Source: Methanospirillum stamsii (GTDB lineage Archaea; Halobacteriota; Methanomicrobia; Methanomicrobiales; Methanospirillaceae). Taken from it: DNA of 64,000 nt. Both the position numbers and the translations under genes were made by a program. Under the pieces are notes generated by a model. The model made no database searches. It was given only the letters and a program-made list of their open reading frames with translations, and had not been told where the DNA came from. Each line of letters begins with the position of its first letter. The first letter of the stretch is position 1. The stretch spans positions 1 to 64,000 of the forward strand of contig NZ_QGMZ01000012.1 in the NCBI RefSeq assembly GCF_003173335.1, in the 5' to 3' direction. Positions 9,120-11,997 of the stretch are shown here, one piece after another.

Positions 9120-9140
9120 AAAACAATAGTGGAAAAGGGG

Positions 9141-9199
9141 ATTGGTCTCTGCACCCTTGGGGCAGTCAACCAGTGATATCGGGTATCACAGAGACCAAT
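9141..9199. repeat. Structured intergenic element after the cbi operon (three-way-junction-like fold)
   Basis: ATTGGTCTCTG (9141-9151) pairs perfectly with CAGAGACCAAT (9189-9199). Inside the 37-base loop two smaller hairpins can form: TGC.CCC/GGGGCA near 9150-9163 and TGATA/TATCA at 9174-9188. Together these fold into a closing 11-bp stem with two arms. It starts 21 bases after the cbiE stop. Candidates are an mRNA 3' stabilising structure, a small RNA or a short repetitive element; nothing in the sequence decides between them. Confidence 0.5.
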
Positions 9200-9434
9200 G
9201 GGGTCTTCATCGAACATTCTCCTCCTACAAGAACCTCATGAATTGATACACACATTTGATGGGGGGTGTGAAATGAGGCATTTCACATGTATGCGTCAGG
9301 TGTTATTCGGATGGGGGGGTGTCTCCATGCAGGTTCTAATGCAGAGAGGTAATTATAGGTTATTTTTGAGATATATTAAATTTAGCCCCAGTGACCTCAT
9401 GAATACGTGATTTGATTTTTATTTTTAAGATTTA

Positions 9435-9443
9435 AATTAGGCA
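9435..9443. repeat. Left copy of a 9-bp direct repeat flanking the transposase
   Basis: AATTAGGCA here recurs in the same orientation at 11078-11086, 25 bases after the transposase stop. The pair could be a target-site duplication of an old insertion of about 1.63 kb. The sequences just inside the repeats are not inverted copies of each other, so the element boundary is unproven and AT-rich chance similarity is possible. Confidence 0.3.
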
Positions 9444-9523
9444 ACCGATTTTGTCATCATATTTCTAATCATTACCTAATAAAAAACAAAATTATAAAAT
9501 ATACAGCATGCCTATAAAGATAT

Positions 9524-11053
9524 GTGAAAACGACAACCCGGGTCAAAAAGATCAACGGGCATGAATACCTGTATGAGATCACCTACTATTATGATAAAGA
9601 GTCTAGAAGAACCAGGCAAAAAAGCAGATATCTCGGTAAAAATGTAGACGGGCAACCAGTCAGGGTCAGAGAAAAAGCAAAAACACCTGAACGAGTCTAC
9701 GCCTATGGAGAGTTCATTCCGTACCTGCAGGCCGTGAAAAACCTCCGTATTCAGGAGATTCTGGGATCACACCTCACAGACCATGAAGTCAGATTATTCC
9801 TGGCACTTCTTTTTGCAGGAATTCATCATCCGGATGCATTACACTCACCAGCGTCCTGGTATGAATCTACTGTCCTCCCCCGGGTATTTTCAGGTCTGAA
9901 AATAACAACCCAGAGCATCACCAGGCTCCTGAAAAAACTTGGTGAGGGCTCAATTCACCTCAGTATATGCAGAGCACTCTCCCAGATTCCGGATAGCGGG
10001 AACATGCGTGTGTTCAGTATTGATCTACCGATGTCCAAACCGACTACCTGGAATAAGGGAGTCACTCATCAGAGTATTGAACCAATTGTCCTTTTTTATG
10101 ACAATATTGAGAACATACCTGTAGGATACCTCTCATCAGCGAGATATCTCATCACCTCAGACCTTGTGAAAGCGATAAGCGCAGGGATGAGCCTCTTCTC
10201 TGGGAAAAAGGCAACAATAATTTCAGGTAAAAATTTTGAATCCTCAATGAATCTGTATGGGGCCATATATAGTGAAATACCCCTCATTTTTCCCCTGGAT
10301 CCGGAACATGATCTTATCAAAGATGAGATCAAACAGCACCGCTCTGAATTAATGCACCCTAAAAATCTGAAAATTTTCCGTGGAGAGACATTATTTGTAA
10401 TTCCAGTAAACCTCACGCTGGAAACCCATCATCTGAAGGGATATATCATTTATAGTCCCCGGCAGGAAGAGGAAATAAGGGAACGGTACGCCGAAGATAT
10501 CGATCTCATTCTCGAAAATCTCAATGAAAAGCCAATATACCGCTGGGTAAACCCTGCTGAGGCAGTTGCGGATGTTGCCGGAATATACAACCAGTTCCTC
10601 CAATGGAAAGTTGAAGATAACCGGATGTTTGTTGACGTAAAAAGAAAGGCACTCGGAAAATACCTGAAAAATAGTGGAATATCGGTAATTATCACCGGAG
10701 ATCCCGAATATCAGTGGGATACCTGTCTTGAGTGGCTTGAAGAACGTGCAGAAGCTGAAGATTTCATTACTACTTTTCTTAAGAATTTCCAGGTTTTCCC
10801 ACTTACTGTTGACAGTGATGTAATGAAGAACGGGGCTTTTCTTATTGCTTTCATCGCTCTCGTTATTGAACGATGGGTACATGAGCAATATACAAAATCA
10901 GGACTTCTGTCAATATATACATCAGAGAGAATACTTCTGGAACTGATGAAAATCCGCTTGATTGGACTTGGAAATGAAAGAGTCATCGTGACAGGGCTGT
11001 CCTCAAGACAAAAAGAGATTCTTGACTCTCTCAAATGGAGTGCGGAACTCTGA
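9524..11053 (+). CDS. IS1634-like transposase, probably catalytically inactive
   Basis: The 509-residue product has the layout of IS1634/IS4-superfamily transposases: an N-terminal GHEYLYEITYYYD region, a DDE catalytic fold, and a C-terminal GAFLIAFIALVIERWV helix. The first acidic residue may be D167 in FSID, and E412 in AEDFITTFLKN matches the IE..F..LK motif. The second Asp, normally in DRGFYSEEN, aligns with Gly235 in SGKNFESSMN. The start is GTG 9524 without a clear ribosome binding site. No terminal inverted repeats were found, only a 9-bp direct repeat outside the gene. It may be a dead or domesticated transposase. Confidence 0.75.
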   Translation: MKTTTRVKKINGHEYLYEITYYYDKESRRTRQKSRYLGKNVDGQPVRVREKAKTPERVYAYGEFIPYLQAVKNLRIQEILGSHLTDHEVRLFLALLFAGIHHPDALHSPASWYESTVLPRVFSGLKITTQSITRLLKKLGEGSIHLSICRALSQIPDSGNMRVFSIDLPMSKPTTWNKGVTHQSIEPIVLFYDNIENIPVGYLSSARYLITSDLVKAISAGMSLFSGKKATIISGKNFESSMNLYGAIYSEIPLIFPLDPEHDLIKDEIKQHRSELMHPKNLKIFRGETLFVIPVNLTLETHHLKGYIIYSPRQEEEIRERYAEDIDLILENLNEKPIYRWVNPAEAVADVAGIYNQFLQWKVEDNRMFVDVKRKALGKYLKNSGISVIITGDPEYQWDTCLEWLEERAEAEDFITTFLKNFQVFPLTVDSDVMKNGAFLIAFIALVIERWVHEQYTKSGLLSIYTSERILLELMKIRLIGLGNERVIVTGLSSRQKEILDSLKWSAEL

Positions 11054-11077
11054 AAAATATCCCTTTTATTACATTCT

Positions 11078-11086
11078 AATTAGGCA
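11078..11086. repeat. Right copy of the 9-bp direct repeat flanking the transposase
   Basis: Same AATTAGGCA as at 9435-9443, located between the transposase stop and the convergent mutY-like gene. See the left copy for interpretation. Confidence 0.3.
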
Positions 11087-11157
11087 TTTTTTTCAGGATT
11101 ACCATACCAAATCTTTGTTTAGGCACGCACCCCCTGTACCTCGGAACGCGTAAAATA

Positions 11158-11997
11158 TCAGGAGAAATGGATGGTGGTATGATCTTTTACAATGAGCCCT
11201 TCAATTATCATTTGGGAAATAATCTTTTCAGTTCTTGAATGTTGATCCCCCACTATTCCAACCAGTTGATTATACTGTGTCGGCCCGTTCTCAAGGAGGA
11301 TTTTTATGACCTGCCCCCGTATCTCCCGGTCTGAACCAGCGAAGGGTGACTGCACCGCATAATGCCTGCTCCTCCGGTTTGGATTCTTTATCTTTCCGGC
11401 AAGAAATGTTCCATAATCCATCAGGCTGTAATACCACTCGCGTGGATTATTTTTATTTAGCGCACGGCTGATAACCGGAATGATCTCCTTGTCAGAAACA
11501 TCCGCTTGATCTTGAAAGAAATGGTGAATAAATACCCGCCGGATATTAGTTTCAATAAAAACAACCGGACGATTATATGAAAAAGCGACAATAGACCCGG
11601 CAGTAGCAGTTCCAATCCCAGGCAGAGTTTTTAGAATTTCCGGATCATCCGGCACTATTCCATTCCATTTTTCTACAATCGCCCGGGAAATCTCCAGGAG
11701 ATATTTCGCCCGCCGGTTATAGCCAAGACCCTGCCAGGCTCTCATGACATCTTCGAGGGATGCTCCGGCAAGTGCATTAAAATCCGGAAACGTCTGGATA
11801 AACTGCGGAAATTTATCCATCACCCTTGGCACCTGTGTCTGCTGAAGCATTATCTCCGATACCACCACCCGGAACGGGGTGATGTCATCCCGCCATGGCA
11901 TCGGGCGCTTATTTTTTTCATAAAATTCCGCCAGGTAAGCATTAAACTGCGAAATGGCATCAGAGTCAGCAGGATTATAATACTTATCCATGTTCAC
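11158..11997 (-). CDS. MutY-like HhH-GPD DNA glycosylase without iron-sulfur cluster
   Basis: The fold is that of MutY, which removes A opposite 8-oxoG. Residues 43-55 hold VVVSEIMLQQTQV with the catalytic-type Glu48; the helix-hairpin-helix LPGIGTATAGSI is at 125-136. Two family features are missing: the catalytic Asp of the LDxNVxRV motif is Glu149 (FIETNIRRVF), and the protein contains no cysteine, so the C-terminal 4Fe-4S loop is absent. The C-terminal 60 residues look like a winged helix in place of the 8-oxoG recognition domain. It is probably an adenine or mismatch glycosylase variant, and substrate is uncertain. It lies next to a photolyase gene. Confidence 0.85.
   Translation of the reverse strand: MNMDKYYNPADSDAISQFNAYLAEFYEKNKRPMPWRDDITPFRVVVSEIMLQQTQVPRVMDKFPQFIQTFPDFNALAGASLEDVMRAWQGLGYNRRAKYLLEISRAIVEKWNGIVPDDPEILKTLPGIGTATAGSIVAFSYNRPVVFIETNIRRVFIHHFFQDQADVSDKEIIPVISRALNKNNPREWYYSLMDYGTFLAGKIKNPNRRSRHYAVQSPFAGSDREIRGQVIKILLENGPTQYNQLVGIVGDQHSRTEKIISQMIIEGLIVKDHTTIHFS

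Follow-up and report, generated by a model that had tools for sequence, protein, structure and literature searches.

A degenerate IS1634-like transposase gene in Methanospirillum: domestication and a probable role as a DNA-binding autoregulator

How does the gene of an insertion sequence transposase come to keep an intact reading frame after decay of its active site? The question is posed by a gene at positions 9524-11053 of the window, the whole 64,000-nucleotide stretch of Methanospirillum stamsii DNA that was analysed. The initial annotation described an IS1634-like transposase with the second catalytic Asp replaced by Gly, and suggested retention for another role such as DNA binding. Sequence comparison with relatives makes domestication near certain. 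The reading put forward here, with a probability of roughly 0.6, is that the dead transposase has turned into a DNA-binding autoregulator fixed at one locus.

An IS1634-like transposase with a degenerate active site

The gene and the parts of it that are discussed below are as follows.

9524-11053, plus strand: IS1634-like transposase gene, domesticated as judged by orthologues, common flanks and dN/dS; GTG start, 509 amino acids, open frame
9524-9703, plus strand: N-terminal domain (residues 1-60), putatively DNA-binding; basic (net +9), predicted three-stranded beta sheet
10016-10018, plus strand: Ser165 codon, in the first catalytic Asp column of the alignment
10226-10228, plus strand: Gly235 codon, in the second catalytic Asp column; Gly in 10/10 Methanospirillum rows, Asp in 19/19 intact-type rows
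10757-10759, plus strand: Glu412 codon, the catalytic Glu, kept by alignment

The 509-codon frame claimed in the annotation is confirmed, with no stop on the plus strand from the GTG start onwards. The NCBIfam transpos_IS1634 profile matches the protein at E 5e-15 and 55.5 bits, short of the family's curated cut-off of 100, and the best stretch of the match spans residues 263-505; a Pfam search up to E 1 gave zero matches. The closest named records bear the names Methanospirillum or Methanomicrobiales. A full-length model built from 7 sequences (pLDDT 69.8, pTM 0.58; residues 206-257 below 50) has Tn5 transposase as its nearest structural neighbour (Z 11.9), with 287-289 residues superposed at an rmsd of 5.1-5.5, and the predicted structure displays an RNase H-like fold in a Tn5-like arrangement. 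A viral structure library yielded one match, an IS4 transposase (E 1.7e-4). The product is a DDE transposase of the IS1634/Tn5-like kind, in agreement with the family first proposed.

The active site was read from an alignment of the protein with the Methanospirillum rows, the rows of a second degenerate lineage (family B, below) and 19 intact-type relatives. All 19 intact-type rows have the second Asp and the Glu, and 18 of them have the first Asp; these rows include several near-identical copies and are not 19 independent cases. The replacement at G235 is as annotated. The alignment adds S165 and the absence of the GYNRD motif, neither of which had been noted. The residue in the first-Asp column varies across the Methanospirillum rows (S, N, T, M, E or D), and the Glu412 position is Glu in 10/10. 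No alternative Asp column able to fill the active site is found in the alignment, which leaves the suggested domestication standing. By alignment, two of the three catalytic acids are gone and E412 remains. The complete DDE triad is described as perfectly conserved across groups (PMC2266710), a pattern from which S165/G235/E412 departs.

A single gene at a fixed position

Full-length, stop-free orthologues are found in nine other Methanospirillum genomes and in one genome of a related genus, g6. Among the 12 Methanospirillum genomes searched, identity is 77-84% in six others and 52-53% in three; in G010, a 75% complete genome, a C-terminal fragment at the end of a contig is all that was found, and G002, which is 67% complete, gave no match assignable to this transposase lineage. 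The g6 orthologue (L056) is 36% identical to the window protein. At eight of the 11 loci the gene stands between cbi genes (cbiE) and mutY; at two more one flank is cut off by a contig end, and one lacks mutY. At the G006 locus (L049, C280) the cbi side is present and mutY was not found in the 2 kb available; by eye, the downstream sequence of L049 resembles the frame after mutY in L008.

The site is also found empty. A cbiE match is present in 68 genomes; loci were sampled from 30 of them, 10 with the gene and 20 without. At eight of these 20 gene-free loci mutY lies convergent with cbiE within 267-426 bp; it is farther off in the flank at five and not seen at seven, two of which are near a contig end. 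In other genera of the family cbiE and mutY can thus be convergent neighbours, and the insertion most likely took place at a junction that was already there. An orthologous position across species and an empty site in relatives are features of a domesticated gene.

In a midpoint-rooted tree of 37 proteins, from which seven fragments or near-copies had been excluded beforehand, the Methanospirillum copies, the g6 copy and a copy from g36 (L073) form one clade (support 97/96), and the intact-type proteins group weakly (59/84). The g6 orthologue retains Asp, Asp and Glu and has lost the GYNRD motif. Since all three acids are present there, loss of catalysis followed fixation. The g36 copy has Asn at the second position and Arg at the third; its surroundings are different, and an ndk-like gene follows it downstream. 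Three further relatives, L014-L016, are found in Methanocrinis natronophilus; they are cut by contig ends, as is often the case with repeated mobile copies, and in its N-terminal part L015 shares 52% identity, and L016 73%, with the window protein.

The element ends of intact relatives are of the CCTGASTTCCC type. Near the gene, the best match to this pattern leaves 4 mismatches on either side (9120-9523 and 11054-11400); the means for shuffled sequence are 3.9 (left) and 3.4 (right), and the real flanks are no better. Four control relatives gave 0, 0, 0 and 2 mismatches at the left and 3, 0, 1 and 2 at the right, the 3 belonging to L058, whose right end is thus missed by the pattern. The terminal inverted repeats, which the annotation likewise did not find, appear to be gone and the element ends are no longer definable. 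A target duplication of 5-6 bp is given for the IS1634 family (PMC2266710).

The organism's own genome holds one copy of the gene and no close copy with inverted repeats. The other matches in it are two full-length homologues (29% and 25% identical) and four weak, partial ones. Neither several copies nor a variable position was observed: the gene is single in its own genome and the flanks are common to the 11 loci where readable, with mutY absent at one.

Purifying selection among close homologues, which the annotation had predicted for a domesticated gene, is evident. By the Nei-Gojobori method dN/dS is 0.033 (G003/G001), 0.041 (G011/G004), 0.047 (window/G007) and 0.052 (G005/G001). Neighbour genes in the same pairs range from 0.053 to 0.22, and the dead transposase lies below every one compared in its pair. 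In G003/G001 its dS of 0.26 is like that of several neighbours (0.15-0.45) and its dN of 0.009 is the lowest (neighbours 0.022-0.066). The ratios for window/G007 and G005/G001 are partly lowered because dS is high (2.1 vs 0.33-1.28 for neighbours, and 1.55 vs 0.39-1.55, respectively). Over all pairs, finite ratios are 0.033-0.088 within the main clade and 0.044-0.059 within the second clade; between clades, where dS is saturated, they are 0.14-0.26 or not finite.

Conserved sites at the promoter and an adjacent RNA candidate

The sequence around the gene displays short sites that bear on its present role.

9437-9446, plus strand: distal site TTAGGCAACC, with TAGGCA starting at -86
9492-9503, plus strand: putative TATA box of the transposase gene, TTATAAAATATA, read from the sequence
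9509-9514, plus strand: proximal site TGCCTA at -15, between the putative TATA box and the start codon
11081-11086, plus strand: downstream TAGGCA, copy 1, from locus comparison
11120-11125, plus strand: downstream TAGGCA, copy 2, from locus comparison

The distal TAGGCA is at -85 or -86 in 10/10 Methanospirillum loci; in the g6 locus its position is -86. The proximal TGCCTA is at -15 in 10/10 Methanospirillum loci and absent from the g6 locus. One or two downstream copies of TAGGCA are present in 9/10 Methanospirillum loci, in pairs 38-41 bp apart in 7/10. In an alignment of 10 Methanospirillum rows, compared from the RNA promoter to the start codon, 12/12 site columns are invariant vs 16/125 others (Fisher p 5e-10, for sites picked after the alignment was inspected). 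Intact-type L058 has TTAGGCA near its left end and TGCCTA just ahead of its start codon, a pair at -93/-18, and other intact relatives display variants such as TAGGCGC.

The pattern TTAGGCA-N55-75-TGCCTA is found at the dead-transposase gene in 7/7 Methanospirillum genomes searched and once elsewhere (G001). A reversed control pattern has 2-11 matches per genome in the same seven, above the real pattern; in the g6 genome (G058) the real pattern has no match and the control has 1. As the control is the more frequent, it is the position of the pair and not its number that stands out. A genome-wide regulon for the paired site was considered and rejected, there being no enrichment elsewhere in the seven Methanospirillum genomes and G058.

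Conserved, operator-like sites at a gene's own promoter are a feature of transcription regulators. Archaeal repressors often bind between the TATA box and the start codon. Residues 1-65 are the slowest-changing part of the protein: between the two Methanospirillum clades their median dN is 0.058, compared with 0.42 over its full length. Conservation of the N-terminal domain extends to intact relatives. Comparison of a model of this domain with PDB folds gave no row above Z 3.6 and a best Foldseek E of 0.28, none convincing. The site pair and the conserved basic domain suggest, indirectly, that the protein binds DNA, and the interpretation put forward in the annotation is supported.

The comparison shows the following course of events. 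An IS1634-like element inserted between cbiE and mutY in an ancestor of Methanospirillum and g6; its ends were lost, and in Methanospirillum the catalytic Asp residues also, with a fixed host gene as the result. The protein keeps its N-terminal domain and Tn5-like scaffold and most likely binds the old subterminal sites of the element, TAGGCA/TGCCTA, which frame its promoter. By covering the stretch from TATA box to start codon it would repress its own transcription, and via the distal site it might act on an adjacent, divergent RNA gene. Intact relatives also have the site pair, so self-regulation could be an ancestral trait that does not explain why the gene was kept. Also counting against the autoregulator are the conservation of the N-terminal domain in intact relatives and its unconvincing fold matches, the lack of enrichment of the paired pattern, its absence from the g6 genome, the complete triad of the g6 orthologue, the arrangement in g36 described below and the between-clade dN/dS values. 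The order of events is legible in living genomes, from the empty site through a copy with all acids (g6) to copies that have lost acids and kept the sites.

The RNA gene is a candidate that lies between cbiE and the dead transposase gene, probably divergent from the latter.

9131-9352, minus strand favoured: structured non-coding RNA candidate; TATA-like sequence at 9372-9380 (minus), 3' hairpin, T-rich tail

Its features include a pair of C-rich CCCCCATC motifs, a TATA-like box and a hairpin resembling a terminator. Over a block of ∼250 bp the window shares 92-97% identity with seven other Methanospirillum genomes and 80-81% with three more, although for most of these pairs the gene is close to saturation at synonymous sites. 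In the comparison with L045, the window gene's dS of 2.1 exceeds the 0.33-1.28 of its neighbours, yet the adjacent RNA block is 97% identical. An Rfam search up to E 10 gave two chance matches, neither over 9131-9352. A small coding gene at this place was rejected: a minus-strand Shine-Dalgarno-like GGAGGAG and an ATG are present, but between species the frame is interrupted by gaps of a single base.

The strand was assessed from base pairing. Read on the minus strand, the 3' hairpin has 112 Watson-Crick pairs, 8 G-U pairs and 0 mispairs in 120 cells, compared with 8 mispairs on the plus strand (10 Methanospirillum rows; G058 was omitted, 7 of its 12 pairs being broken or gapped). The P1 stem, in 13 rows and 117 cells, has 4 mispairs on the minus strand vs 15 on the plus, 11 of the latter at one pair. 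Folding energy favours the plus strand: all 11 rows fold more stably on it, with a consensus energy of -42.0 vs -29.8 kcal/mol and 7 vs 5 doubly changed pairs. A TATA-like sequence lies at the minus-strand 5′ end, and the minus strand is favoured.

A model of the 5′ domain, built from 13 of the 14 sequences found so that only G010 is an independent find, detects the RNA in 14/81 genomes of the family, and extending the search to the 232 genomes of the class adds none. The 14 are 11/12 Methanospirillum, one g6 and two g36. A match in G088 (E 0.008) was dropped as it falls within a coding frame. The 14 genomes are those with this transposase lineage, of which only fragments are present in G010 and G166; short N-terminal transposase fragments in G171, G185 and G188 were not assigned to any lineage. 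This co-occurrence may count as one event, because the three genera may form one clade. In g36 the RNA and the protein gene are in different contexts, and no TAGGCA is present within ∼220 bp upstream of the RNA.

Possible roles of the protein and a second degenerate lineage

The element resembles the IS1634 family (IS4 superfamily) in sequence family, size, Tn5-like fold and internal TTAGGCA/TGCCTA, as in L058. It differs in the loss of two of three acids, the lack of detectable terminal repeats, its single copy, fixed position and vertical inheritance.

A trans-dominant inhibitor is one kind of function that such a protein could have. It would bind the ends of related insertion sequences, pair with active transposases and confer immunity. 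The scaffold and the mobile-type sites are kept, and the family relatives L058 and L074 have TTAGGCA near the left end. The Tn5 inhibitor, a transposase derivative without transposition activity, is also among the structural neighbours of the model (1b7e, Z 8.2); it lacks the N-terminal DNA-binding part, whereas the N-terminal part is the best conserved in the window protein. Three intact Methanospirillum homologues whose flanks were inspected, L002, L029 and L030, however, have a different sequence where the site would be, TAGGCGCATA, and a position constant throughout the genus, with a dN/dS near 0.04, exceeds the needs of passing immunity. Such an inhibitor is considered unlikely.

It can also be imagined that the dead transposase and the adjacent structured RNA form one regulatory module, in which the protein, for example, controls or binds the RNA. 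This would be a DDE counterpart of the nuclease-dead TnpB regulators and seems quite unlikely; the RNA candidate is a separate lead, open to testing. TldR proteins are nuclease-dead TnpB proteins recruited as RNA-guided repressors (PMC13418256). As described there, they too are transposon proteins without catalysis that have become fixed genes, with DNA binding kept in TldR and probable here. Unlike TldR, the present protein is a DDE transposase, its recognition would be protein-based and the neighbouring RNA displays no sign of guiding.

A purely structural role, with the upstream and downstream TAGGCA sites joined in a transpososome-like complex and no regulation of transcription, is distinctly improbable. 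The sites do flank the gene, with at least one downstream copy in 9/10 Methanospirillum loci, but the downstream sites shift in position and are missing in G004, and the 147 bp of downstream sequence available for the intact relative L058 contain no such site. It is more improbable still that the protein remains a nuclease or recombinase with other active-site residues, at this locus only: Glu412 is present in 10/10 and the g6 orthologue has Asp, Asp and Glu, but in Methanospirillum the first-Asp column varies among S/N/T/M/E/D, the second is Gly and GYNRD is gone. A recently inactivated copy on its way to a pseudogene, as the lost ends and active-site residues might suggest, is ruled out by synteny, stop-free orthologues in 11 genomes, strong purifying selection and the same Gly in 10/10.

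For the favoured autoregulator there are partial parallels elsewhere. The plant FHY3/FAR1 transcription factors are likewise regulators derived from a transposase; theirs is of Mutator-type origin, whereas here the host is an archaeon and the origin IS1634-type. Literature judged by titles and abstract openings contained no domesticated DDE transposase acting as an archaeal regulator. In a review of prokaryotic recruitment (PMC8987985), at least three of the four mentions of transposase relate to how Cas1 arose.

A second degenerate lineage, family B, forms a separate clade in the 37-protein tree (100/100), by which its inclusion in the lineage of the window gene is ruled out. Its members are L003/L055 (G000 C29:26165-27658), L027, L032-L036, L040-L042 and L066. 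The second catalytic Asp is missing in 11/11 rows and the same gene block lies alongside in 5/7 regions compared. TTAGGCA or its complement is found upstream in 7/8 of the rows inspected.
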